DNA of 64,000 bases from positions 186,001 through 250,000 of the forward strand of contig NZ_BPIM01000001.1 in the NCBI RefSeq assembly GCF_026004115.1, read 5' to 3'. Shown here in pieces: positions 3,287 through 55,966 of the stretch. This DNA comes from Meiothermus sp. (GTDB lineage Bacteria > Deinococcota > Deinococci > Deinococcales > Thermaceae). The first letter of the stretch is position 1; every line of letters begins with the position of its first letter. Made by a program: the position numbers and the translations under genes. Under the pieces are notes generated by a model. It worked only from the letters and a program-made list of their open reading frames with translations. It ran no database searches and was not told the origin of the DNA.

Positions 3287-4181
3287 CGTGCGCATTGCCA
3301 CCCGGGGCAGCCGCCTGGCCTTGTGGCAGGCGGGTTGGGTAAAAGAGCAGCTCGAGCGCCAGGGCGCCCGGGTGGAGCTGGTGGTGGTGGAAACCCAGGG
3401 CGACCGCGTGGATCTGCCTTTTGCCCAGATGCAAGGACAAGGTTTCTTCACCAAAGCCATACAGGACGCGGTGTTGCGCGGCGAGGCCGATCTGGCGGTA
3501 CACTCTTACAAAGACCTGCCGAGCGCCCGTCCGGAAGGGCTGGAAGTGGCCGCCATACCCCCGCGCGAAGATCCCCTCGAGGTTCTGCTCGTCCGCCCGG
3601 AAGCCCTGGACGAGCAGGCCAATAAGCTTCCCCTCCGCGCAGGGGCCCTGGTAGGTACCAGTGCCGTGCGCCGCCAGGCGCAGATTCAGGGGCTAAGGCC
3701 CGACCTGAGCATCCGGGAGTTGCGCGGCAATGTGCCGACCCGGGTCGAGAAGCTAAAGCGGGGCGAGTACGAGGCCATCCTGCTGGCCCACGCTGGCCTC
3801 AAGCGGCTGGGCCTGGATCTGAGCGGACTGTACGCAAAGGTATTGCCGCCCACCCTGGTGGTGCCGGCCCCGGCCCAGGGAGCCCTGGCGCTGGAGTGCC
3901 GCTTGGACGACCTTCGCCTCAAAGCCCTGTTGCAATCCCTGGACGATCCCCAGGCCCGCCGCACGGTGTCGGCTGAGCGAGGGCTCATGCAAAAGCTGGC
4001 CGGCGGCTGTCAGCTAGCGCTGGGGGCCTGGGCCCAGGAAACCCAGGGGGGTTTGGCGCTTACCGCCTGGTATGGGGGGCAGCTTTACCGGGCCCTCTCC
4101 ACCACGCCCGAGGCGGTAGCGGAAATGGTTTTTCGGCAAATTCGCACAGAGAACCCGGAGGTGGTATGCGAATCGCCCTGA
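3279..4181 (+). CDS. hemC: Hydroxymethylbilane synthase (porphobilinogen deaminase)
   Basis: Joins four porphobilinogens into hydroxymethylbilane. The 300-aa length is normal. Visible hallmarks are the N-terminal IATRGSRLALWQA, the catalytic aspartate Asp79 in HSYKDLPS, the cofactor-binding arginines in SAVRRQAQ and RELRGNVPTR, and Cys244 in AGGCQLALG, which carries the dipyrromethane cofactor. The ATG at 3279 lies inside the end of hemA (8-nt overlap) and the gene overlaps hemD by 16 nt, so the three are translated together. Confidence 0.95.
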   Translation: MVSVRIATRGSRLALWQAGWVKEQLERQGARVELVVVETQGDRVDLPFAQMQGQGFFTKAIQDAVLRGEADLAVHSYKDLPSARPEGLEVAAIPPREDPLEVLLVRPEALDEQANKLPLRAGALVGTSAVRRQAQIQGLRPDLSIRELRGNVPTRVEKLKRGEYEAILLAHAGLKRLGLDLSGLYAKVLPPTLVVPAPAQGALALECRLDDLRLKALLQSLDDPQARRTVSAERGLMQKLAGGCQLALGAWAQETQGGLALTAWYGGQLYRALSTTPEAVAEMVFRQIRTENPEVVCESP

Positions 4182-17996: not shown

Positions 17997-18161
17997 ATGA
18001 AACGTGCGGGTAAATCCAACAAAGAAAAGACACCGGGCTGGCCCGACGACTTCCCGGTTATCGAACCCACCAAGAAAGGAAAACCCGCCCTTCCTAAACC
18101 GTTCAAACTCAAACCCGGTAAAAAGACTTCCCTCGACTATGTCCGCGAGCAACGGAGATAG
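17997..18161 (+). CDS. Candidate antitoxin, small basic protein upstream of the PIN gene
   Basis: 54 aa, Lys/Pro-rich, starting MKRAGKSNKEK and ending DYVREQRR. It overlaps the PIN toxin start by 23 nt, the usual order and coupling for type II toxin-antitoxin pairs. No DNA-binding fold is recognisable, so the role is inferred from position alone. Confidence 0.5.
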   Translation: MKRAGKSNKEKTPGWPDDFPVIEPTKKGKPALPKPFKLKPGKKTSLDYVREQRR

Positions 18162-18606
18162 ACTGATTGTTTTTGATACCGGAGCGCTAATCCAACTTCA
18201 CAGCCAGGAACACTTCAGCACACTTTCAAAACAGGTTTACAACCAAGCAAGCCAAATTGGAATGTGCTATTTGGTGTTACCGGAAATCGCTGGTGCGACA
18301 GGCGCAATGATGCGGGCAAAACGCCTTTCAAAACGACAAAGAAGCCAAATACAAAACTTTTTAATCGCAAATCTTCAATATTGACTACTTTTGCCCGTTT
18401 CCCAGCGGGTGTGTGATATGGCTTTTGACCTATGCCAAAAGCACTCATTAAAAGGAGCCGATGCCATACATCTGGCTGCGGTAAAAATTCTTTTGTCATT
18501 CAGACCGCAATTGACCTTTTTTACTCTGGATAAAACCCTGTACCAGGCCGCCCAAAAAGAAAAAATCCCCGTGGTGACCATTCCGGAGTTCGAGCGTGGC
18601 CGGTAG
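18139..18606 (+). pseudogene. PIN-domain (VapC-like) toxin, interrupted by an in-frame TGA
   Basis: PIN-domain ribonucleases cleave RNA with a cluster of acidic residues. The acidic positions are visible: Asp in LIVFDTGALI, Glu in VLPEIAGA, Asp in KGADAIHLAAV and Asp in FFTLDKTLY. A TGA at 18382-18384 stops translation after 81 codons, while the same frame continues without other damage to 18606. The simplest reading is a nonsense mutation that disarmed the toxin. Base composition is clearly lower in GC than neighbouring prophage genes, suggesting separate acquisition. Confidence 0.75.
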
Positions 18607-19015
18607 ACAGACCTTTCGAATGCTGATTGTGGGCAAGTCGGGCTCGGGAAAGTCCACCCTGGCCCGGCAGATTATCCGGCGTATGCAGGGGCGCTACCGC
18701 CACCTGGTCATCGTCAACCGCAAACGCGAGTTTGCCGAGCTGTGCGAAGGGCGCTACACGGTGGGGGAGGACGGCGACCCCCAGCCTGCCCTAAAGCGCC
18801 ACCGCCGGGTGATTTTCCAGGTGACAGGCTACGACCCCAGGCCCTTCCTGGACAATCTGGGCCAGGCGATCATGCGAATGCAGGATGTGCTGCTGGTGCT
18901 CGACGAGGCCCACCACTTCTTTCCCAGGGGGCAGACCCCTAAAAGGGTAAAACCAAAAGAGAAAAGGGAAAAACGTGTTAAACTTATTAGCGGGCGCACA
19001 GAACTTAAACGTTAA
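18596..19015 (+). CDS. Truncated P-loop ATPase (packaging/assembly type)
   Basis: 139 aa. Walker A is GKSGSGKST at about residues 12-20 and Walker B plus adjoining residues LLVLDEAHHFFPRG near residue 105. After that, related ATPases (HerA/FtsK-like, A32 packaging, or inovirus Zot/pI) continue with sensor regions and 100 or more residues; here the frame ends after a lysine-rich tail. The opening MLIVGKSGSGKST...LVIVNRKREF reads more like HerA/A32-type enzymes than Zot. The GTG at 18596 overlaps the PIN gene by 11 nt. Probably a remnant, though a short functional form cannot be excluded. Confidence 0.65.
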   Translation: MAGRQTFRMLIVGKSGSGKSTLARQIIRRMQGRYRHLVIVNRKREFAELCEGRYTVGEDGDPQPALKRHRRVIFQVTGYDPRPFLDNLGQAIMRMQDVLLVLDEAHHFFPRGQTPKRVKPKEKREKRVKLISGRTELKR

Positions 19016-19430
19016 TGACCTGCTGGATGCCCTGGCTGAATTGCGAGCTAGCGCGTCTAAGATTAGCTGCATCGAGGAGCGGCTCGAGGCCATTCAGCGC
19101 ATATTGGCGTATGAGCACGGAATGCCCTCAAAGGGTTTGCCAGCAGATTATCGGCAAAACCTTCCCTTGATCGTGCAAATCAAAAGTGGTGGTCGTGTAG
19201 ATTTGGCTAGTGCGCTAGGTAAGCCAGCAACGCGAGGGCATATTTGGAACATGAATGATCCAGTAGATGTCTATTTTGAGAATCAAGGAAAGCGAGTTGG
19301 GCCCTACAGCCTACGCGGTGGCGACAAATTAGAAATTAGTTTTGCTATCGAGGCCCTGGAATTGGAATTTTTGCCACCGGAATACTATCTGGATACTCCG
19401 AACCCATTGGTGCAAATTTTGGCCCATTAA
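18975..19430 (+). CDS. Prophage protein of unknown function with N-terminal coiled coil
   Basis: 151 aa from a GTG overlapping the truncated ATPase by 41 nt. Residues 15-45 are predicted to form a coiled coil; the rest looks like a beta-rich domain (GGRVDLASALGKPATRG, then PVDVYFENQGKRVGPYSL). GC is lower than in the neighbours. It could be a surface or spike protein, or material inserted when the ATPase lost its C-terminus. Not recognised. Confidence 0.5.
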   Translation: MLNLLAGAQNLNVNDLLDALAELRASASKISCIEERLEAIQRILAYEHGMPSKGLPADYRQNLPLIVQIKSGGRVDLASALGKPATRGHIWNMNDPVDVYFENQGKRVGPYSLRGGDKLEISFAIEALELEFLPPEYYLDTPNPLVQILAH

Positions 19431-19433
19431 TCT

Positions 19434-20195
19434 ATGACATTGGCACGAATCGTAACTAGCCCGTGGATATGGTTGGGGTTGATTGCGGCTACCGCATATC
19501 AGCGAAGTCAAAGCACCTCGAGCCTGAACCCAAACGCCAAACCACCGGCAACGCCTGCTACGGGGGCAGGATGTGGGTATCCTGCGCCCGGACTGCCGCC
19601 TGCGCCAGCAAAGACGATTGCGGAATTGCAAAATCGAGTATGGCGAGCCATCCTGAGCTACAACGGTAAGGTGAACGACACCGCCAACGCTATGGGGTTT
19701 GAACCGGACACAATCGGGAAAACCTATGCCAAATACCTGGCCGAATACCTGGTAGAATCCGCCATCAAGAATAAAGTGCCGCTGGATCTGCTGGTGGCCC
19801 TGGCTCAAAGGGAAAGTAGCTTTACCCCCACCGTAACGACTGACCGTTACGAAGCGCTGGGGTGGACAGATGATGCCATCAAAAAGGCAGTGCAAAATCA
19901 ATGGGCCCTTGGCCCGCTTCAGGTTAAGCCGGTGGTGTTTACCGAGGTTGGCCTGGCCAGCCCGGCACGGTGGCCAGGTGACCCGGTGCCCTGGAAGCAT
20001 CCTGCCCGCCTCAGAGATGCCGTTGAAGCCGGGGCCCGCTATCTGGCCAAGCAACAAAAACGTTTTGGCACCTGGTGCGCTGCCCTTCATGCGTACAACC
20101 GAGGCCCGACGGCATATACCAATGGGGCCAGGGCGGATAGGTACGTGAACCAGATTATCGCCTGGGCAAACGGATATACGGAGCTGCGCACGTAA
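19434..20195 (+). CDS. Membrane-anchored lytic transglycosylase (SLT domain)
   Basis: 253 aa. An N-terminal membrane segment (about residues 9-22) and a Pro/Ala-rich linker precede an SLT/lysozyme-like domain. The catalytic glutamate is in LLVALAQRESSF (about residue 126), followed by LGPLQVKP and ALHAYNRGP, the three standard SLT motifs. It cleaves peptidoglycan glycan strands. Together with the M23 peptidase it gives the prophage both wall-cutting activities. Last gene of the prophage; a terminator follows at 20219. Confidence 0.85.
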   Translation: MTLARIVTSPWIWLGLIAATAYQRSQSTSSLNPNAKPPATPATGAGCGYPAPGLPPAPAKTIAELQNRVWRAILSYNGKVNDTANAMGFEPDTIGKTYAKYLAEYLVESAIKNKVPLDLLVALAQRESSFTPTVTTDRYEALGWTDDAIKKAVQNQWALGPLQVKPVVFTEVGLASPARWPGDPVPWKHPARLRDAVEAGARYLAKQQKRFGTWCAALHAYNRGPTAYTNGARADRYVNQIIAWANGYTELRT

Positions 20196-20196
20196 A

Positions 20197-20214
20197 GTGT
20201 CAATAAGGTGTCAA
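20197..20214. repeat. Candidate integrase arm site, right end of element 1
   Basis: GTGTCAATAAGGTGTCAA, matching GTGTAATAAGGCGTCAA at 12387-12403 in the same orientation and lying about 50 bp inside attR. Confidence 0.4.
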
Positions 20215-20218
20215 AACG

Positions 20219-20249
20219 AAAAAGCCGGGCATAGCAACCCGGTCTTTTT
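20219..20249. terminator. Bidirectional terminator between prophage and tRNA cluster
   Basis: AAAAAG-CCGGG, loop, CCCGG-TCTTTTT. The stem CCGGG/CCCGG with flanking A and T runs can end both the rightward prophage operon and the leftward tRNA operon. Confidence 0.65.
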
Positions 20250-20260
20250 GCGTCCTGGAC

Positions 20261-20336
20261 TGGTGCGCCCGGGAGGACTCGAACCCCCGACCTACCGCTT
20301 AGAAGGCGGCTGCTCTATCCACTGAGCTACGGGCGC
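20261..20336 (-). tRNA. tRNA-Arg, anticodon TCT
   Basis: Complete 76-nt cloverleaf on the minus strand starting GCGCCCG and ending in an encoded CCA (20261-20263). The anticodon loop is CTTCTAA. The 3' half (20265-20307) is duplicated at 12226-12268 and serves as the attachment site of element 1. Confidence 0.95.
20265..20307. repeat. attR of element 1 inside tRNA-Arg
   Basis: 43-bp copy identical to 12226-12268. Here it is part of an intact tRNA gene, as expected when an element integrates at a tRNA 3' end and restores it. Confidence 0.9.
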
Positions 20337-20424
20337 AGGCAAACCCAAACAAGGCCAGCGATAGTTTAGCAGACTTATCCAGAAGCCAGTAGCCCACAAT
20401 AAAACCGCCCAGAAGGGCGGTAGG

Positions 20425-20500
20425 TGGAGCGGGAGACGGGATTCGAACCCGCGACATTCAGCTTGGAAGGCTGACGCTCTACCAACTGAGCTACTCCCGC
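20425..20500 (-). tRNA. tRNA-Gly, anticodon TCC
   Basis: 76-nt cloverleaf on the minus strand starting GCGGGAG, with acceptor stem closed by CTCCCGC and an encoded CCA. The anticodon stem-loop reads CAGCC-TTCCAAG-CTG with anticodon TCC. Confidence 0.95.
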
Positions 20501-20535
20501 ACGCTGCGTTTATGTCTGGTGGCCGCCGGTGCTTT

Positions 20536-20612
20536 TGGTCGGGGAGACTGGATTCGAACCAGCGACCCTCTGCTCCCAAAGCAGATGCGCTACCAGACTG
20601 CGCTACTCCCCG
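20536..20612 (-). tRNA. tRNA-Pro, anticodon TGG
   Basis: 77-nt cloverleaf on the minus strand starting CGGGGAG, with anticodon TGG in the loop TTTGGGA and an encoded CCA at 20536-20538. First gene of the leftward Pro-Gly-Arg tRNA operon. Confidence 0.95.
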
Positions 20613-20649
20613 ATTGTACGCCTGGCATTCCTGCCACAACGCAACAATA

Positions 20650-20678
20650 AAGATAACATGCACGCCAAAAGCGGTCAA
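20650..20678 (-). promoter_or_regulatory. Promoter of the Pro-Gly-Arg tRNA operon
   Basis: On the minus strand TTGACC (20673-20678) and TATCTT (20650-20655) are 17 bp apart, about 40 bp upstream of tRNA-Pro. Confidence 0.55.
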
Positions 20679-20719
20679 ACCCGATTGGCCCTGACCGATA
20701 CCGATTGAGCGATTAGGTA

Positions 20720-20748
20720 TTGACAAGAAACTTCTCCGCTACTATATT
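20720..20748 (+). promoter_or_regulatory. Promoter of tRNA-Lys
   Basis: TTGACA (20720-20725) and TATATT (20743-20748) with a 17-bp spacer; mature tRNA begins at 20761. A near-perfect sigma-70 promoter. Confidence 0.8.
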
Positions 20749-20760
20749 TACTTTTTGCTT

Positions 20761-20838
<78 letters not shown>

Positions 20839-20851
20839 TCCAGGACGAGAA

Positions 20852-20880
20852 AAACCCGAGGGATGCTTACCCTCGGGTTT
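20852..20880. terminator. Terminator between tRNA-Lys and the element 2 integrase
   Basis: Perfect 11-bp stem AAACCCGAGGG (20852-20862) and CCCTCGGGTTT (20870-20880) around a 7-nt loop, followed by GTCCTTTT. It can end tRNA-Lys on the plus strand, and the A run on the left lets it end the integrase transcript on the minus strand. It lies inside the element. Confidence 0.8.
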
Positions 20881-20884
20881 GTCC

Positions 20885-20910
20885 TTTTACGGTGATTTTA
20901 CGGTTTATGG
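20885..20910. repeat. Integrase arm-type repeats, left end of element 2
   Basis: TTTTACGGTGA (20885-20895) and TTTTACGGTTTATGG (20896-20910), in direct orientation. The same TACGGTTTATGG block ends a triple repeat at 27784-27817 near the other attachment site. Confidence 0.6.
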
Positions 20911-20912
20911 AT

Positions 20913-22061
20913 TCAGGCCTTAGCTCGTGGTCGTGAAAGTAGGGTCTCCACATCCACCACCCACCCCTGCCGCTCGTGCTCAAGGACGTGTCGGTAAATC
21001 GAGAGGGTGATGTTGGCGTTCGCGTGCCCCATGCGCTCGGACACAAGCTCGAGGGGTGCACCGTTCGCCAGCAGGTGGCTACCGTAAGAGTGTCTGAGGT
21101 CGTGCACCCGCAAGGGCGGAATGCCCAGGGCCTTCACGATTCGGCGGAGGGCATGAGCGGGGGCCCGGTAGTCCAGGGGCCTTGTGGGGTCGTTCCCAGG
21201 GAATAGCCACAGCGTAGCGGGTGGGGTCTCGCCCAGCCGGTCTTCCCACATGGCGTGATAGGCCCTCAGCCGCTCCAGGGTGCTGTGCGGGACGGGCAGG
21301 GTGCGGCGGCTCGAGGGGGTCTTGGGTTCTGTGAGCCGTCCATCACTCCAGGCCCGGCGGATGGTGAGAGTCCCGGCCTCGAGGTCAAGGTCTTGCCACT
21401 GTAGGCCCAAAGTCTCACCCACCCGTAGCCCCAGGTTGAGCATGAGGCGCAAAGAGAGGGCGATTCTCTCGTCCTTGTAGGTATCCAAAGCCGTAAGCAG
21501 GGCAGCGGCCTCGTGAGCCTCCAGTGATCTACCGGCGCGGTCGGTAGTGGAGCCTCGGGGTAGTTTGACCTTCACAGGGGATACAGGGTTACGGTGAATG
21601 ACCTCGAGGTTCAGCGCTTCCTCGAATATGGCGTGCAGCCGGGTGCGTACTGCTCGGGCGGTGCGGGGTTTTCGGGTCTGCAAGAGATTGTCCACCAGGG
21701 CACGGATATGTGACGGTGTGATTTTTTGCAAAGGCAGCTTGCCCAGGGTGGGCAGCACCAGCCCCAGCTCGTACTGGTAGGACTCGAAGGTGCGCGGCCT
21801 GACCTCCCGGCGCTTGCGCTCGAGCCAGCGTTCGGCCCATTCCTGAAGCGTGATGGCGGAGGGATCGGCCAGCAGTCCCTTGTGATAGAGGGCCACCTGC
21901 TCGGCCAGCCAGCCCTCGGCCTCCTTGCGAGTCGAGTGGTAACTACGCACTCGTAGCGGTTTGCCATCCCCGTCATAGCCCAGGTTCAGTTCGGCGCACC
22001 AGCGGTTTGATGCTTTGTGGAAATAGGTTGTGCCAGCGCCCTTACCGCGCTTCTTTGCCAT
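20913..22061 (-). CDS. Tyrosine recombinase (integrase) of element 2
   Basis: Catalyses site-specific integration and excision at tRNA-Lys. 382 aa and intact: an N-terminal arm-binding AP2-like domain (GTTYFHKASNRWCAELNLGY), a SAM-like core-binding domain (about residues 60-150), and the catalytic domain with Arg in LNLGLRVGETLGL, HDLRHSYGSHLL with the HxxR box, and the nucleophile tyrosine in ITLSIYRHVLEH. It lies directly next to attL with arm repeats just beyond its stop codon. Overlaps the next upstream gene by 20 nt. Confidence 0.93.
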   Translation of the reverse strand: MAKKRGKGAGTTYFHKASNRWCAELNLGYDGDGKPLRVRSYHSTRKEAEGWLAEQVALYHKGLLADPSAITLQEWAERWLERKRREVRPRTFESYQYELGLVLPTLGKLPLQKITPSHIRALVDNLLQTRKPRTARAVRTRLHAIFEEALNLEVIHRNPVSPVKVKLPRGSTTDRAGRSLEAHEAAALLTALDTYKDERIALSLRLMLNLGLRVGETLGLQWQDLDLEAGTLTIRRAWSDGRLTEPKTPSSRRTLPVPHSTLERLRAYHAMWEDRLGETPPATLWLFPGNDPTRPLDYRAPAHALRRIVKALGIPPLRVHDLRHSYGSHLLANGAPLELVSERMGHANANITLSIYRHVLEHERQGWVVDVETLLSRPRAKA

Positions 22062-49437: not shown

Positions 49438-49785
49438 TTAGGCCCGGGCTTTGCTCACCAGCTCGGCAAAGGCCTCAGGCTGGCGCACGGCGATATCGGC
49501 CAGAATCTTGCGGTCCAGCTCGATACCGGCTTTCTTGAGGCCGTGCATGAACACGCTGTAGCTCAGGCCATGCTGGCGCGCGGCAGCATTGATACGCACG
49601 ATCCACAGGCGGCGCATATCACCTTTGCGCTTGCGGCGGTCGTTGAAGGAGCGCATGGCCCCGCTGAACAGGGTTTCGCGGGCCTTACGGACGCTCTTGG
49701 AGCGCAGGGCATAGAAGCCCTTGGCACGCTTGAGGATGGCTTTGTGCTTACGGCGACGGACTACACCGGTTTTTGCGCGTGGCAT
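49438..49785 (-). CDS. rplT: 50S ribosomal protein L20
   Basis: 115 aa, basic, with [24 protein letters not shown] and [30 protein letters not shown], the standard L20 sequence. Binds 23S rRNA early in 50S assembly and in some bacteria represses its own operon. Third gene of infC-rpmI-rplT. Confidence 0.97.
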
Positions 49786-49801
49786 ACTCTTTCACCTCTC
49801 C

Positions 49802-50002
49802 TTATACGTCGTAGGGCATGAGCTGGTGGACACGGCGCTCTTCGCCTTTGGCAAAGGTAAAGTCGCGCCCTTTCTGACGGCGGCTGCTGCCCGACTTGTG
49901 CCAGTTGAGGTGGCGTTTCCCCGGCTTTTTGCCAACTACCTTGCCAGTAGCCGTGATCTTGACACGCTTTTTGGCGCCCTTGTGGGTCTTCATCTTGGCC
50001 AT
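49802..50002 (-). CDS. rpmI: 50S ribosomal protein L35
   Basis: 66 aa. MAKMKTHKGAKKRVKITATGKV and HLNWHKSGSSRRQKG are typical of L35. AGGAG lies upstream of the ATG at 50002; the longer open frame upstream is not coding. Sits 16 bp before rplT. Confidence 0.97.
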   Translation of the reverse strand: MAKMKTHKGAKKRVKITATGKVVGKKPGKRHLNWHKSGSSRRQKGRDFTFAKGEERRVHQLMPYDV

Positions 50003-50122
50003 TGTGTGCTCCTGTATCTGCGGCCTGAGTGCCTCTGCATGAGGACTTAGGAACTCGGCAGCCTTGCAAGTATAGCATCCCTTCGCTTTGTTTGCCAACG
50101 AAGGGTATGGGAAAACCGCTAC

Positions 50123-50158
50123 AGTATAAATAAAACCCGACCTCACCAGGGCCGGGTT
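50123..50158 (-). terminator. infC attenuator/terminator and candidate rpmI promoter
   Basis: On the minus strand AACCCG...CGGGTT with an inner CCT/AGG pairing, followed by TTTTATTT, lies 30 bp after infC. Immediately after it TATACT (50123-50128 as AGTATA on plus) could be a -10 box giving extra rpmI-rplT mRNA. Confidence 0.6.
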
Positions 50159-50187
50159 AGCTTTTTGGCAGTCTGGGCAAGTAAACC

Positions 50188-50745
50188 CTAGGCGGGGTTG
50201 CCAGACGAAGCGGCAGGGGCCACCGGGGCCGAAGGCTTGGCGCCTGGCGCCATCACCATATTCATGTCGCGGCCCAGCATTTCCGGGCGCATTTCGACAA
50301 ACCCTATTCCTTCTAGATCCCTCGCGATGCGTTCCAAAAGCTTGTAACCTAGCTCCTGGTGCGCCATCTCGCGCCCGCGGAACATGATCGTGACTTTGAC
50401 CTTGTGCCCTTCCTCGAGAAAGCGCCGAATATGTCCGACCTTGGTGTTGTAGTCGTGGGCCTCAATTTTGGGTCGGAGCTTCATGCTCTTGAGTTCGGTG
50501 CGCTTGGCCTTCTTGCGGGCTTCTTTTTCGGCCTGCTGTTGCTCATAGCGCCACTTCCCATAATCGAGCAGCCTGGCCACAGGTGGAACCGCATTGGGTG
50601 AGACCAACACCAGGTCGTATTCGCGCTCCTTGGCCATGCGCAGGGCTTCGCGGGTGTCCACCACCCCTACCTGGGTTCCATTCTCGTCAATCAGGCGTAC
50701 CTGACGCACCCGAATTCGTTCATTAACTGGAACATCTCTGGTTAT
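50188..50745 (-). CDS. infC: Translation initiation factor IF-3, apparent ATA start codon
   Basis: 185 aa. Contains VNERIRVRQVRLIDENGTQ, ARLLDYGKWRYEQQQAEKEARKKAKRTELK split over two motifs, and KVKVTIMFRGREMAHQELGYKLL of the C-domain. The conserved VNERIRVR lies upstream of the first canonical start (GTG 50709). In frame above it, after GGAGGTG (50751-50757) and a 5-nt spacer, comes ATA at 50743-50745, giving M(ATA)-TRDVPVNERIRVR. Non-canonical starts in infC are the known basis of IF3 autoregulation. The C-terminus has an Ala/Pro-rich extension (APVAPAASSGNPA). Confidence 0.92.
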   Translation of the reverse strand: MTRDVPVNERIRVRQVRLIDENGTQVGVVDTREALRMAKEREYDLVLVSPNAVPPVARLLDYGKWRYEQQQAEKEARKKAKRTELKSMKLRPKIEAHDYNTKVGHIRRFLEEGHKVKVTIMFRGREMAHQELGYKLLERIARDLEGIGFVEMRPEMLGRDMNMVMAPGAKPSAPVAPAASSGNPA

Positions 50746-50970: not shown

Positions 50971-51738
50971 ATGACCGTTACCGCATCCGACCGCAATGGC
51001 ATCCGGCTGCTCACCCTGAACGACCCTGAAAGGCGCAACCCGCTCTCTCCCGGATTGGTGCAAGATTTACTGGAGCAGCTAAATGCCGCCGAACAAGACC
51101 CCAACACCAGGGCGGTGGTGCTGACCGGAGCCGGCCAGGCTTTTAGTGCCGGGGCCGACCTGGATTTTCTAAAAAGCGTTACCACCGCCGGCGCCGAGGC
51201 CAATTACGCCCACTCCCGCAGTCTGATGCGCCTTTTTCACCGGGTTTACACCTTCCCCAAACCCACCATTGCCGCCATCAATGGCCCGGCGGTAGCCGGT
51301 GGGGCCGGGCTGGCCATGGCCTGCGACCTGGCCCTGATGAGCGAGGCCGCCCAAATCGGCTACAGCGAGGTAAAGATTGGCTTCGTGGCCGCGCTGGTAG
51401 GGGTGATTCTAGTGCGCAACGTGGGGGAAAAGCACGCACGGGAGCTGCTCCTTACCGGCCGGCTGGTCTCGGCGTCGGAAGCCTACCGAATGGGGCTCGT
51501 GAACCGAATCATACCCCCAGAGCAATTGCTGGACGAGACCCTGGCCCTGGCCCAGGAGGTGAGCGCCAACGCCCCCACCTCGCTGGCACTAACCAAAGAG
51601 TTGCTGAATGCTCTGCCGGGAATGGGCCTCGAGGACGGCCTCCGGCTGGCGTCCATCGCCAATGCCTGGGTGCGCGAGACCGGCGACCTGGCCGAGGGTA
51701 TCGCGGCTTTTTTCGAGAAACGTCCGCCGCGTTTTTAG
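50971..51738 (+). CDS. Enoyl-CoA hydratase/isomerase family protein
   Basis: 255 aa crotonase fold. Oxyanion-hole region AFSAGADLDFLK and INGPAVAGGAGLAMACDLALMSEAAQIGYSEVKIGFV, with the catalytic glutamate position in SEVKIGF occupied by Glu. GGAGGT lies before the ATG. Likely acts in fatty-acid or aromatic degradation; the exact substrate cannot be told. Converges with the DUF2089 gene, 4-nt overlap. Confidence 0.9.
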   Translation: MTVTASDRNGIRLLTLNDPERRNPLSPGLVQDLLEQLNAAEQDPNTRAVVLTGAGQAFSAGADLDFLKSVTTAGAEANYAHSRSLMRLFHRVYTFPKPTIAAINGPAVAGGAGLAMACDLALMSEAAQIGYSEVKIGFVAALVGVILVRNVGEKHARELLLTGRLVSASEAYRMGLVNRIIPPEQLLDETLALAQEVSANAPTSLALTKELLNALPGMGLEDGLRLASIANAWVRETGDLAEGIAAFFEKRPPRF

Positions 51739-52130
51739 GGTTTTTTCAAGGCCCGCAGCCGTTCGGCAGCCTCAGCAGCGCTGATCTGGCCTTTTTCTAG
51801 GGCCGCCAAAATTGCTTCTTTTTCTTCTGGGTTGGGGCCTTCGGGCATCTCCTGGTACTCATACCCCAGCACCCGGAGCAACGCTTCGAAGCGGGCTCGG
51901 ATGGTAGGGTACGACAGGCCCAGAATCCGTTCGACTTCCTTCAGGTTGCCCCGCACCTTGACGTACAGGCGCAGAAACTCTAAGTGCTCTGGGGGCAGGA
52001 GGGCAAACTCGTTGGGCCGGAACTCACCTCGAATCTCGGTGCGGCAGTCCGGGCAGACCAGTTCAGTCACGTGCAGTCGCCTGTTGCAGCCCTCCACCGG
52101 GCATTGTGTGGGCATGGGGAACACTCGCAT
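51735..52130 (-). CDS. DUF2089-family zinc-ribbon/HTH regulator
   Basis: 131 aa from the ATG at 52130 (GGAGG four bases upstream; an ATG five codons later is also possible). The N-terminal zinc ribbon has CPVEGCNRRLHVTELVCPDCRTEI, then an HTH (VRGNLKEVERILGLSYPTIRARFEALLRVLGY) and a C-terminal helical SHOCT-like motif EKGQISAAEAAERLRAL. The same short C-terminal motif begins two other proteins of this operon, which links them. Confidence 0.85.
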   Translation of the reverse strand: MRVFPMPTQCPVEGCNRRLHVTELVCPDCRTEIRGEFRPNEFALLPPEHLEFLRLYVKVRGNLKEVERILGLSYPTIRARFEALLRVLGYEYQEMPEGPNPEEKEAILAALEKGQISAAEAAERLRALKKP

Positions 52131-52149
52131 ATAACCTCCGGGCGGGCCT

Positions 52150-52497
52150 TTACCAAAGCCCAATCTTGACATGTGCTTGCTTTGGGGGCCTTTCCCCGTT
52201 TTTGGGCCTGAACTCTATCTCTACCAGGGCAAAAGGCGGCATTTTGCGCAACGCCCAGGTCTGGCCGCGCAGCGCTTCTAGGGTGTGCAGGGCAAAAGCG
52301 GTCTGGGAGTCGTGGTTTTGCCGTAAAATCCAGAGCGCCATCCACAGGAAAAACTCCAGCGCTACTAAAGGCGCGAACAAGAATATGGGCACCGGGATTT
52401 CCTGCACCCGCACCCACAAATACACAAACCGAGGGCGCACCAGGTTCAGTTGGGTGAACCAGCCCGTTTTAGAGGTTGCTTTGGCCACTGCCACCAT
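52150..52497 (-). CDS. Small single-pass membrane protein in the DUF2089 operon
   Basis: 115 aa from the ATG at 52497 (GGAG upstream). One or two hydrophobic stretches at about residues 36-58 (VPIFLFAPLVALEFFLWMALWIL), then a soluble part. Not recognised. 20 bp before the DUF2089 gene. Confidence 0.6.
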   Translation of the reverse strand: MVAVAKATSKTGWFTQLNLVRPRFVYLWVRVQEIPVPIFLFAPLVALEFFLWMALWILRQNHDSQTAFALHTLEALRGQTWALRKMPPFALVEIEFRPKNGERPPKQAHVKIGLW

Positions 52498-52532
52498 CCT
52501 AATCTCCATCCAGGGCCAAGAAGCCAAAGCCC

Positions 52533-52973
52533 TCAGACCACTTCAATCAAGACCCGCATGGGGCCCGACATTTTGCTCTGGCCTTCGCTCACCTTGCCCA
52601 CGTCGCTGATCTCCACATCCACCAGGCGGCCCTCGGGCAACTCGCCTTTGAGCATGTCCAGAATGCTCGCCAGGTCAATGCCCTGGGCGCTCAACTGCTG
52701 TTTGGCCTCGGGGGGGATGAAGTTGGAGGCGAACTTGGCCAGGGCTGCGGGTACGTTGACCCTGACCTTGACTTCCTCACCATCCAGCACGATGCGAATC
52801 ATCTTGGCGATGCCTTTGGGCGGGGGTGGGGTGGTAGCCACTGCGTAGGCGTAACCTGCGCCGGGGGTCGCCGTCTGTCGCCTGGTGTCCATAGCTTCCA
52901 ATAAGCGAATGGCCTCCTCGGCGGTAATTTTGCCTTCCTTGACCATATCCATAATGCGCTTTTTGTCGTCCAT
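52533..52973 (-). CDS. SHOCT-like domain protein in the DUF2089 operon
   Basis: 146 aa. N-terminal KKRIMDMVKEGKITAEEAIRLLEAM is a SHOCT-like motif; the central part IRIVLDGEEVKVRVNVPAALAKFASNF resembles the YvlB/DUF4097-linked domain found with DUF2089 regulators. Role unknown, possibly membrane-stress signalling by analogy with yvl/lia operons. Confidence 0.75.
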   Translation of the reverse strand: MDDKKRIMDMVKEGKITAEEAIRLLEAMDTRRQTATPGAGYAYAVATTPPPPKGIAKMIRIVLDGEEVKVRVNVPAALAKFASNFIPPEAKQQLSAQGIDLASILDMLKGELPEGRLVDVEISDVGKVSEGQSKMSGPMRVLIEVV

Positions 52974-52984
52974 AAAGGGGCTCC

Positions 52985-53107
52985 TCAGAGAACCGCAAAG
53001 AAAAAAACCGTGGGCAGGGGGCCAGGCACAGACCCTTTCTTGGCTTTAGTTCGTTTTGTAGCGCGAGCGGAAGCGGGTTTTGTCGGGTTTTTACGTGATG
53101 GAGCCAT
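52985..53107 (-). CDS. Candidate 40-aa basic small protein
   Basis: Reads MAPSRKNPTKPASARATKRT, then KAKKG and a hydrophobic end (LPTVFFFAVL). It starts 3 nt after the stop of the upstream gene and ends just before the binding site of the next, so it fits the operon tightly. Lys/Arg-rich start and hydrophobic tail could be a tail-anchored or DNA-binding peptide. No homology judged. Confidence 0.4.
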   Translation of the reverse strand: MAPSRKNPTKPASARATKRTKAKKGSVPGPLPTVFFFAVL

Positions 53108-53110
53108 GGC

Positions 53111-53857
53111 CTACCTCGCCTTCACTTCCAGGTTGCCCATACGCACCGAGACCTCGAGGCTGGCCCTTCCCTCCCCTAGCTGCCTGGTGGCCCCGTTTGC
53201 GGTGCCGCTAAATCCCCTGATCTCCTGGTTGCCCAGGCTCACGCTGGGGCTCAGCCGCACGCTGCTTCCAGGTAACACATCCAGCTCGACATTGCCCATC
53301 GAGGCCCGCAGACGGTGCTGACCTTCCCGGAGCAAAAGGGAGCCTTCAATGTTGCCCGCCGTGACCTCGAGGTCGAGCCCCTCCACCGCCTTTAGCTCGA
53401 CATTGCCCGCCGCCACCCGGCCCTTCAGAAACGCAATGCCCTCGGTTTCTACCTGAGCGGCCTTGCTGTCTACCTCCAGGCCCCAGCCCGGCGGCAGGCG
53501 CAGTTTCAGCGAACCCATCCGTCCCAGCAAACCGCCTAAAAAGCTACCACCCGACATTTCAGGCAGTACTTCGAAGTCGGCCCCCACCGGGCGGACTTCC
53601 GCCGGGCCCTCGACCACAGGCATCTGGAGGCTCTTATCGAGCCGGGCCTCGAGGCTGCCTGCAATGAGCCTGACCCGCAGCCAGCGCAACCCCTCTGGCT
53701 GCCAGCCAGCAGATGGGGCGTACTGCTCGCCCAGGGTTGCCTGGGCCTGCTGGGACGCCGTGTAGCCCTCCTCGAGGGCCGAAAGCAGCAGGTCGGCTTC
53801 CTGCTGGGTGATCTTGCCTGCTTGAAGCAGGGCTTGGATGCGCTCTTGTTCGGTCAT
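53111..53857 (-). CDS. SHOCT-like plus DUF4097-type beta-helix protein
   Basis: 248 aa. N-terminal IQALLQAGKITQQEADLLLSALEEG is the SHOCT-like motif; the C-terminal half is a run of short beta repeats (AGNVELKAVEGLDLEVTAGNIEGSLLL, ASMGNVELDVLPG, SLGNQEIRG, RMGNLEVKAR) typical of DUF4097/adhesin-like putative beta-helices. No signal peptide. Part of the same operon. Confidence 0.8.
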   Translation of the reverse strand: MTEQERIQALLQAGKITQQEADLLLSALEEGYTASQQAQATLGEQYAPSAGWQPEGLRWLRVRLIAGSLEARLDKSLQMPVVEGPAEVRPVGADFEVLPEMSGGSFLGGLLGRMGSLKLRLPPGWGLEVDSKAAQVETEGIAFLKGRVAAGNVELKAVEGLDLEVTAGNIEGSLLLREGQHRLRASMGNVELDVLPGSSVRLSPSVSLGNQEIRGFSGTANGATRQLGEGRASLEVSVRMGNLEVKAR

Positions 53858-53919
53858 GGAAACCTCCAGGTCAAAAACGACTCTTTTTAGGGCATGGGTG
53901 GTCAGGGGGCTATTGCTCG

Positions 53920-54117
53920 TCAGGCGCCGCGCAACTGCCGGTTCTCAAGGTCTGGGGTAGCCTCTAAAGCCTCGGCCCAAGCCCTGAGCAGGTGAGCAAG
54001 GCGACGGCGGAGGGCCTGCCGGGGCAAGTGCCGCTCCAGTTCGGCCTCCGCTTGATAGGCGCTCACTTTATCGGCGATTACTACTTCGAGTTCTGCTGAA
54101 TTGAAGTTCCCGAACAT
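53920..54117 (-). CDS. Small helical protein, first gene of the DUF2089 operon
   Basis: 65 aa: MFGNFNSAELEVVIADKVSAY then a charged helix AELERHLPRQALRRRLAHLLRAWAEAL. AGGAGG lies 6 nt before the ATG, partly inside the operator palindrome. Not recognised. Confidence 0.65.
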   Translation of the reverse strand: MFGNFNSAELEVVIADKVSAYQAEAELERHLPRQALRRRLAHLLRAWAEALEATPDLENRQLRGA

Positions 54118-54126
54118 ACCTGGCCT

Positions 54127-54190
54127 CCTTGGTTATCAATATAAACCAAGGTTTTATATTTTGTCAATATTACTTTTATATTTTGTTAAC
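54127..54190 (-). promoter_or_regulatory. AT-rich promoter with palindrome and direct repeats
   Basis: On the minus strand TTGACA (54162-54167) and TATATT (54138-54143), 18-bp spacer. CCTTGGTT (54127-54134) / AACCAAGG (54144-54151) form a perfect inverted repeat around the -10 box, and AAAATATAAAA occurs twice (about 54152-54161 and 54172-54184), flanking the -35. The block is far more AT-rich than anything near it. Strong candidate operator of the DUF2089 system. Confidence 0.7.
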
Positions 54191-54199
54191 TTCGTTTTT

Positions 54200-55966
54200 C
54201 TATGTATGCACCAGCAGCCCCTCGAAGTATGCGATTCGCTCCTTCAGCACCTCCATGCCCCCCTGCCAAAAGTCCACCGACTCAAGGTCGAAGCCAAAAC
54301 GGGCTGCCAGTTGTTCGGCGGGGTACTTGCCCACCGAGGCCAGCAGTTCGTCGTAGCGCGCCACAAAGCCGGGGCCCTCCAGTTGGTACTGCCGGTAGAG
54401 CGACAGACCAAACAAAAGCCCAAAGGCGTAGGGGAAGTTGTAAAAGTTGGAGCCGTAGTAGTGGCCTTTGACGGCCCACATGTAGGGGTGATAGGTGGCC
54501 AGGGCCTCGCCGTAGGTCGCCTCCTGGGCCTCCTGCATAAGCCGGCAGAGTTCAACCGGCAGAAGCTCCCGCTCCCGCCTCTGGGCAAACACCGCCTGCT
54601 CGAACAAAAAGCGCGAGTGGATGTCCACAATCACCTGGGCCGCACTTTGCAGGCTGCCCTCGAGCACCCCGAGTTGCTCGGCAGGGGGCAGCACCCGCAG
54701 GGCCGCCTCCCCTACTACCGTTTCGTTCATGATGGAAGCCGTCTCGGCCAGGGTCATGGGCTCCTGGCGCAGCAGGTAGGGCACCTCCCGCAAGCAGTGG
54801 TTGTGGTAGGCGTGGCCCAGTTCGTGGGCCAGGGTCGAGATGGACTCAAAGCTGTCCTCGTGGTTGAGCAGAATGCGCGAGCGCCCCTGTCCCACCGGGG
54901 TGCAGTAGGCCCCGCCCACCTTGCCCTTGCGGGGCGGCGCATCCAGCCAGCGCTCGGCATAGGCCCGCTGGGCCAGCTCGGCAGCGGCCTGCGAGAAACC
55001 CAACAGGTGTTCCACAATAAAGCGCTGCCCTTCCTCCCAGCTCCATTTTTTGGGCCTTTGCCCGGGCCGCCCCACCGGCGCAAACAGATCCCACCAGTCC
55101 AGTCTATCCTTGCCCAAAGCCCGGGCCTTGGCGACAAAGTATCGCCGCCAGTGAGGAAAACTATCCACCATTACCTGCTGCATGGCCCGGAGGGTTTTGC
55201 GGCTGATGCGGTTCTCGAACAGGGCCGGGGCCAGGTCGTCTTCCCAGCCGCGCTTGCGGTTCAGGGTCGAGACCTCGCCTTTGTAGCCGTTGAGGGCCGC
55301 CGAAAGGGCAGTTTCATGGGCTCTCCAGGCTTTGAGTTCGGCTTCATAGGCCGCTTTACGCACCCTTTCGTCGGGGTGCATGGCCAGGTTGCGCACGGCG
55401 GTCATGGGCAGTTCTTCCCCCTGCACCACCGCCGTAATCTGGCTGGTCAGGTTGCTGTGCAGCTTGACCCAAGCCCGCCCGCCCGAAAGGGAGAGTTCGG
55501 CAGCCAGCACCTCTTCGGGCTCGGACATCAGGTGCTGGGCCTGGACTCTGGCCTCCTCGAGCAAAATCCGGTAGTCGCCCGCCTGGACCGCCTCAGCGTC
55601 CAGCAGGGCCAGCCAGCGCTGAAGGCGGGGGCGCAGCTTTTGGTACTGAAGGAGCAAAAGCTCGAGTTCCGATAGCCTGACCTGGGCCTCGGCATCGGCG
55701 CTATCGGCATCTACCCGCATCAACACGTAGGCGTAAAGCGGCCCCAGGGTGTCGCCAAAGGTGTTGAGCTTCTCCACCAGGGCCTCGAAGGTATATTTAC
55801 CGGTTGAGGCCCCCTCCTGACCAATGCGGTGGGCCTGCATGAAGTCTTGCAAATCCCGCAGTTGACCCTCCACCTGGCCCCAAGTAGCCTTGAACTTCTG
55901 CGATTCAAAACCCGGAAACAGGCTATCTAAATCCCAGGTTGGAAGCTCGGCAGTGAACTGGCTCAT
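54200..55966 (-). CDS. pepF: Oligoendopeptidase F (M3 family)
   Basis: 588 aa. The zinc motif HELGHAYHN lies near residue 394 (TLAHELGHAYHNH), with the downstream glutamate in SIMNETVVGEAAL. N-terminal helices LPTWDLDSLFPGF and the GSNFYNFPYAFGLLFGLSLY C-terminal segment are typical. Cytoplasmic peptidase cutting short oligopeptides. TATACT ends 7 nt before the ATG. Confidence 0.95.
   Translation of the reverse strand: MSQFTAELPTWDLDSLFPGFESQKFKATWGQVEGQLRDLQDFMQAHRIGQEGASTGKYTFEALVEKLNTFGDTLGPLYAYVLMRVDADSADAEAQVRLSELELLLLQYQKLRPRLQRWLALLDAEAVQAGDYRILLEEARVQAQHLMSEPEEVLAAELSLSGGRAWVKLHSNLTSQITAVVQGEELPMTAVRNLAMHPDERVRKAAYEAELKAWRAHETALSAALNGYKGEVSTLNRKRGWEDDLAPALFENRISRKTLRAMQQVMVDSFPHWRRYFVAKARALGKDRLDWWDLFAPVGRPGQRPKKWSWEEGQRFIVEHLLGFSQAAAELAQRAYAERWLDAPPRKGKVGGAYCTPVGQGRSRILLNHEDSFESISTLAHELGHAYHNHCLREVPYLLRQEPMTLAETASIMNETVVGEAALRVLPPAEQLGVLEGSLQSAAQVIVDIHSRFLFEQAVFAQRRERELLPVELCRLMQEAQEATYGEALATYHPYMWAVKGHYYGSNFYNFPYAFGLLFGLSLYRQYQLEGPGFVARYDELLASVGKYPAEQLAARFGFDLESVDFWQGGMEVLKERIAYFEGLLVHT

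Follow-up and report, generated by a model that had tools for sequence, protein, structure and literature searches.

Which sequence at the promoter of a small operon serves as its operator, and which protein reads it, is the question raised by a locus of a Meiothermus sp. genome (G000, 3.35 Mb). The operon lies on the minus strand, from 54117 to 51735 of a 64,000-nucleotide (nt) stretch of contig NZ_BPIM01000001.1 that we refer to as the window, and the product of its last gene, gene F, is a DUF2089 protein. A first-pass annotation of this DNA had proposed that the operon is autoregulated and had pointed to a palindrome over the -10 element as the site bound by F. The analysis presented here points to a different candidate operator, namely, an array of direct repeats with a 22-bp period around the -35 element.

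The operon promoter and its direct-repeat array

The features at the promoter were as follows.

54162..54167, minus strand: -35 hexamer TTGACA, with box 1 and box 2 on either side
54138..54143, minus strand: -10 hexamer TATATT
54152..54162, minus strand: putative operator box 1, AAAATATAAAA, core TATAAA, mostly in the -35/-10 spacer
54174..54184, minus strand: putative operator box 2, AAAATATAAAA, upstream of the -35 hexamer and 22 bp from box 1
54197..54202, minus strand: third and weaker box, TAGAAA, another 22 bp upstream
54127..54151, minus strand: dyad CCTTGGTT-N9-AACCAAGG over the -10 hexamer, its 3' arm overlapping the gene A Shine-Dalgarno sequence (the AAGG of the latter)
54124..54130, minus strand: Shine-Dalgarno sequence of gene A, AAGGAGG

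The promoter, TTGACA-18-TATATT, carried 11 of the 12 consensus letters. The two copies of AAAATATAAAA formed a TRKAAA-N16-TRTAAA direct repeat with an exact period of 22 bp around the consensus -35 hexamer, and relatives often had TAGAAA or TRKAAA at the position of the third box. The highest 75-nt AT (adenine plus thymine) content of the whole 64-kb window was found here (0.813, at 54133; window mean, 0.387). Thus, the AT extreme, the repeated AAAATATAAAA and the perfect 8-bp inverted repeat around the -10 hexamer that had been reported in the first-pass annotation were all present.

The conservation of the array was examined in 111 genomes of the phylum Deinococcota and in 60 fetched DUF2089 loci. 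One genus among the relatives (g4) we take to be Thermus. The pattern TRKAAA-N7-TTGACA-N3-TRTAAA, drawn from side-by-side promoters of relatives, had 70 matches in 59 of the 111 genomes when at most one mismatch was allowed. Fifty-two of these matches were located 0.66 to 4.13 kb upstream of a DUF2089 gene on the same strand, in 50 genomes, 22 of which had promoters that were unviewed when the pattern was written. The reversed pattern had no matches, and re-spacing to 27 bp yielded three, including an A-gene promoter site that had already been counted. Exact TRKAAA pairs at 22 bp occurred in 22 of the 60 loci, and none of 100 shuffles had them in more than two; harmonics were seen at 43 to 44 bp.

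The array was unique in its own genome and occurred essentially once per genome. Specifically, a scan of G000 with up to three mismatches returned three overlapping matches at the operon promoter and four elsewhere, each of the four with three mismatches. Across the phylum, 18 matches were unlinked to DUF2089. Five of them (G004, G019, G063, G066 and G081:C30) were at the start of an A or B gene on a cut contig, three (G001, G002 and G057) preceded A-like genes elsewhere, and the one in G086 was ambiguous. In the case of G019, the operon start with a perfect array site was on a 5.6-kb contig, and a gap in the assembly probably explains why that genome has no DUF2089 gene. A perfect array also preceded a second pair of A-like and Toastrack-like genes in two sister-genus genomes (L105 in G001 and L106 in G002), and DUF2089 was absent from the 9 kb fetched around each. 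This second array suggests a trans-acting protein. The paralogous DUF2089 operons L094 and L095 had no clear array. In G057, a lone A-like open reading frame (ORF) followed the array at about 3763-4030 of locus L108, with a TetR-like gene next to it; this locus had its own perfect 8-bp dyad over the -10 hexamer, of a different sequence.

A corresponding layout was found in DUF2089 operons of Bacillaceae, for which we used the best 80 of 460 relatives, all of them bacilli but one labeled Pseudomonas. The stretch upstream of the Bacillaceae F gene had a mean AT content of 84% and an autocorrelation peak at 21 bp. When, for each of these 80 loci, the window richest in AT outside that stretch was taken instead, no such peak was seen (z of -0.2). 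Pairs of TTAAT 21 bp apart occurred in 24 of 45 non-redundant Bacillaceae promoters, compared to a mean of 1.5 and a maximum of 5 in 300 shuffles. In neither lineage was there an excess of 10- to 11-bp spacings, which argues against phased A-tracts.

The DUF2089 protein and the genes of its operon

The genes of the operon, in order of transcription, were as follows.

53920..54117, minus strand: gene A, 65 amino acids (aa), first gene; small helical family
53111..53857, minus strand: gene B, 248 aa; SHOCT-like helix at the N-terminus and a weak LiaG/Toastrack-like domain
52985..53107, minus strand: ORF C, 40 aa, basic; doubtful gene
52533..52973, minus strand: gene D, 146 aa; SHOCT-like, a start like the LiaX N-terminus and an unnamed domain common with Bacillaceae
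about 52150..52497, minus strand: gene E, about 115 aa; a single hydrophobic, probably membrane, segment; no family
about 51735..52130, minus strand: gene F, DUF2089 protein with a zinc ribbon, a probably LuxR/sigma4-type helix-turn-helix (HTH) and a C-terminal SHOCT-like helix; proposed autoregulator

Shine-Dalgarno-like sequences preceded A, B, D and F; that of E was weaker. Of two possible starts for F, 52130, which follows CGGAGG, is more likely than 52172. E more likely starts at 52497.

As had been noted in the first-pass annotation, the product of the last gene was a zinc-ribbon/HTH protein: F scored 74.1 bits with the HTH model PF09862 (cut-off, 33.4) and 47.4 bits with the N-terminal zinc-ribbon model PF22747 (cut-off, 27.6). 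F was the sole DUF2089 gene of its genome. A homologue was present in 47 of 50 family genomes, the DUF2089 HTH was found in 105 of the 111 phylum genomes (above the cut-off in 103), and the recognition helix was nearly constant among relatives. The family was absent from the phage collection that was searched. In the DUF2089 proteins of loci L077 and L088, the zinc-ribbon cysteines were lost and the HTH was kept, so zinc may not be essential for these proteins. No sequence relative of F was found in the PDB, and Foldseek alone gave no match at an E value of 0.001 or lower. An AlphaFold2 model built from 33 sequences had a mean predicted local distance difference test (pLDDT) score of 76.2 and a predicted template modeling (pTM) score of 0.44, and its central part aligned with VraR, LiaR, DosR, NarL and Taq sigma region 4 (VIA Z of 6.4 to 7.3 over 52 to 56 residues). 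The modeled HTH of F may thus share the fold of the LuxR/NarL-type regulators and of sigma region 4, although the Z of about 7 over about 54 residues is below what the tool treats as a clear match. Unlike those regulators, F lacks a receiver domain and has a zinc ribbon before the HTH and a SHOCT-like helix after it.

The SHOCT-like helix had been assigned to three of the products, and this assignment held, above the model cut-off in D and below it in F and B. With the PF22746 model (cut-off, 27), D scored 46.6 bits, F scored 24.3 bits at residues 116 to 144, the expected place, in alignment with Bacillaceae and other members, and B scored 15.6 bits; 13 of 14 B homologues matched the model at an E value of at most 0.1. 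The DUF4097 (Toastrack) domain was recognized in 2 of the 14 B homologues (best E value, 0.0038) and not in B of the window itself. The annotated set of six small genes stood in part. Six ORFs were present, and five of them (A, B, D, E and F) had homologues in synteny in relatives; the sixth, ORF C, is doubtful because tblastn found homologues in only 2 of 40 fetched loci (L033 and L042). The A-B-D-E-F order recurred in the fetched Deinococcota loci, some of which had extra SHOCT/Toastrack-like copies or inserts, and of the 60 loci scanned, 40 had an A homologue in first position. The A family had no consistent Pfam match among 20 members. In Bacillaceae, the operon began with F-D, and among 13 loci a third small gene followed in all but L159, for which the stretch covered ended before that position.

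Other comparisons with the operon proteins gave little. B alone had no sequence relative in the PDB, and its profile gave two weak unrelated matches only; D had only weak MazG-like matches there (best E value, 0.022), and its structure model was too poor for use (mean pLDDT, 50.1). The idea that D and E are two copies of one domain was unsupported (hhalign probability, 0.3). No PADLOC family was found in A, B, D, E or F. Three Thermus genomes had no full-length DUF2089 gene (G024, G031 and G048, the last with a cut-down copy), and a search of these genomes for gene D gave no match at an E value of up to 10 in G024 and G048 and a marginal one (0.082) in G031. In G048 (locus L071), the operon was apparently deleted, and a DUF2089 remnant without the zinc ribbon directly followed the upstream membrane-protein gene.

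The kinship with Lia/Yvl envelope-stress operons that had been proposed earlier was supported by these weak domain matches and by a published gene context. The four-gene DUF2089-Toastrack context, with a proposal of membrane-linked signaling, is already in print, and in the accessible text of that paper, as in our operon, a DUF2089 protein with a zinc ribbon, an HTH and a SHOCT-like C-terminus stands beside SHOCT-bearing and Toastrack-like proteins (PMC11237479). The same text describes no operator, and to this context our analysis adds gene A, the 22-bp array and the Shine-Dalgarno dyad; in contrast, neither a PspC nor a LiaI-LiaF-TM domain was recognized in our operon proteins with Pfam and NCBIfam. 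With the yvlABCD and lia operons of Bacillus subtilis and with enterococcal LiaX, our operon shared the LiaG/DUF4097-like domain in B and the LiaX-like N-terminus in D. It differed from them in having no LiaRS or PspC among its proteins, and the scores were far below the cut-offs for LiaG (B, 19.8 bits; cut-off, 285) and LiaX (D, 24.5 bits over residues 1 to 35; cut-off, 350), so the full-length LiaX model was not matched. No PspA/LiaH or PspC match was found with Pfam or NCBIfam in a search confined to the six operon ORFs; in B. subtilis, YvlB is reported to interact with PspA and LiaH (PMC9239133). DUF2089 annotations also occur beside small membrane proteins in leaderless bacteriocin clusters (PMC7332713, PMC10707071, PMC9484092), but in the accessible portions of these papers the proteins are short forms (89 and 98 aa in two of them) and no Toastrack-like gene is listed. 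A comparable case in our searches was locus L127, a Lactiplantibacillus plasmid on which a short DUF2089 gene adjoined an aureocin A53-type bacteriocin gene. In the literature that was searched, mostly without subscription papers and preprints, no operator of a DUF2089 protein and no tested function for the family was found. What is new here is the promoter array as a candidate operator; the operon type and its membrane-stress reading are already published (PMC11237479).

Candidate autoregulation and competing explanations

We propose that this is a self-regulated envelope-stress-type operon in which F would repress from the 22-bp array and be freed by SHOCT-bearing, membrane-linked partners, a model to which we give an even chance. 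Specifically, F would be a cytoplasmic DNA-binding repressor, at least two copies of which would occupy TRTAAA-type boxes two helical turns (22 bp) apart on both sides of the -35 hexamer and thereby block RNA polymerase at the near-consensus promoter. The sensing side would consist of B, D and E, the last of which is probably a membrane protein. Upon envelope disturbance, the SHOCT-like parts of B and/or D would capture F via its C-terminal SHOCT-like helix, F would leave the array and the operon would be turned on, until resynthesized F shut it down once more. The dyad over the -10 hexamer would be a separate device, which would fold over the gene A Shine-Dalgarno sequence in read-through RNA from the peptidase gene upstream, so that mainly transcripts from the operon's own promoter would be translated.

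A near-consensus promoter with operator boxes on both sides of the -35 hexamer, one of them in the spacer, is the usual layout for repression, and the promoter in the window fits it. The single array per genome, ahead of the gene set that encodes F, suggests autoregulation. That part of the earlier proposal gained indirect support from the conservation of the array across the phylum, whereas the likely operator is the direct repeat of AAAATATAAAA and not the palindrome, which was kept mainly in close relatives. Release of F by SHOCT partners and an envelope signal are suggested by the domains of the partners and by the context described in PMC11237479. The alignment of the modeled HTH with VraR, LiaR and Taq sigma region 4 also fits the model, as do the three Thermus genomes that lacked both a full-length DUF2089 gene and a clear gene D.

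Several observations weigh against this model. The loci share descent, so the shuffle-based scores overstate their independence, and coding stretches reached z values of up to 19.7 at spacings other than that of the array. At up to one mismatch, the linked site was absent in 61 of the 111 genomes, 20 of 48 viewed genomes failed the pattern, and about nine of the 70 matches sat at unrelated genes. The box letters differed by phylum, TRTAAA in Deinococcota and TTAAT in Bacillaceae, so the layout is what the two lineages share; exact TRKAAA pairs had no 21- to 22-bp excess in the Bacillaceae promoters, where the 21-bp signal came from ATTAA/TTAAT. In Bacillaceae, the array was located chiefly upstream of the promoter, a region that activators bind as well. 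The Z of about 7 for the modeled HTH may reflect a mere common fold, as the tool warns for values below 8. Finally, as regards the complex built by SHOCT-helix contacts that the first-pass annotation had proposed, self-oligomerization of a different SHOCT domain was tested once and was unsupported (PMC3581485).

Two competing explanations keep the array as a protein-binding site. An unlinked regulator might bind it while F acts otherwise, for example by binding the dyad or as an anti-sigma-like partner. Because F and the boxes co-occur, comparison of genomes cannot separate them, but an array that occurs essentially once per genome makes a global regulator unlikely, and F was the only protein with a recognized DNA-binding domain common to the Deinococcota and Bacillaceae operons; we regard this explanation as rather unlikely. 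F could also be an activator, with polymerase recruited by the array around the -35 hexamer and upstream of it, in the manner of LuxR/NarL-type response regulators. The alignment of its HTH with those of LiaR, VraR and NarL would suit this role, as would the boxes farther upstream and the mostly upstream position of the Bacillaceae array. A promoter that already has 11 of 12 consensus letters and a box 1 that lies in the -35/-10 spacer argue for a different role, and activation seems to us rather unlikely.

The other two explanations give the array no role as an operator. The very AT-rich promoter, including AAAATATAAAA, which we take to resemble an UP element, might be strengthened by an UP element or by intrinsically curved DNA with no specific regulator. 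However, box 1 was downstream of the -35 hexamer, the period was 21 to 22 bp with none of the 10- to 11-bp excess that phased A-tracts would give, and the array occurred at no other promoter of its genome, which leaves this explanation improbable. The binding of F to the 8-bp palindrome, as first suggested, was a natural choice: the arms CCTTGGTT and AACCAAGG (54127-54134 and 54144-54151, 9 nt apart) paired perfectly, were genome-unique at spacings of 5 to 13 nt, and covaried in close relatives. Outside the genus, the arms were mostly near background while the recognition helix of F remained nearly constant, and the palindrome was therefore rejected as the main conserved operator. Within the genus, the arms shifted in sequence yet still paired: in eight distinct rows, 96.9% of the dyad cells were paired, a value equaled by 4 of 500 shuffles and destroyed by sliding the partner. 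One pair had changed on both sides, and of the nine other departures from the commonest pairs, seven were G-U wobbles and two were unpaired. Arms that vary yet pair, with departures that are mostly wobbles, point to RNA more than to a protein site, and we consider the palindrome a very improbable operator and the choice of it probably wrong.

If autorepression by F from the array is correct, the Toastrack/SHOCT stress operons of Thermus, Meiothermus, their relatives and the bacilli would gain a regulatory circuit. In any case, the defined boxes and spacing turn the role of DUF2089 into a testable question. A broader extension, which we offer tentatively and with some doubt, is that DUF2089 proteins are widespread array-binding autorepressors that would read AT boxes two turns apart, in a layout conserved from Bacillaceae to Deinococcota while the letters drift. 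They would be pulled to the membrane by SHOCT-like partners as a one-component switch without a histidine kinase, and in Meiothermus-like genomes a read-through hairpin would also hide the first Shine-Dalgarno sequence.

The dyad as a possible hairpin, and the surrounding sequence

The dyad was mostly a genus-level feature and resembles an RNA hairpin covering the Shine-Dalgarno sequence more closely than an operator. Its arms were perfect or paired at 7 of 8 positions in the window and the nearest relatives and were near background in most others. Across 48 promoters, a mean of 3.44 of 8 positions paired, compared to 2.83 after shuffling. Arms of at least 5 were found in 24 of 66 promoters (7.7 expected) when the site was sought in whole loci, a count in which L048, L059, L067, L092 and L093 look misplaced. 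Close relatives accounted for most of the excess, although arms of unrelated sequence recurred (L063, L108 and L111). The folding z of the RNA from promoter to start codon averaged -4.5 in 15 Meiothermus-group rows, -1.3 in 18 Thermus rows and -1.2 in the 33 remaining rows, which shows that not every relative has the hairpin.

Judging from the -10 hexamer, transcripts from the operon's own promoter would start at about 54131, inside the 3' arm, in which case the hairpin could form only in read-through RNA from the gene at 54200-55966. That gene, which we take to encode an M3-like peptidase, was on the same strand and ended about 80 bp before gene A, and no terminator-like site was found between the two. 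The hairpin might then guard the gene A Shine-Dalgarno sequence against read-through, a suggestion that we make with low confidence.

Elsewhere in the window, the genes at 49438-50709 look to us like those for ribosomal proteins L20 and L35 and initiation factor IF3, presumably an ordinary neighbor. The segment at 18001-21000 had a guanine-plus-cytosine content of 52 to 55%, compared to about 61% window-wide, and is possibly foreign.

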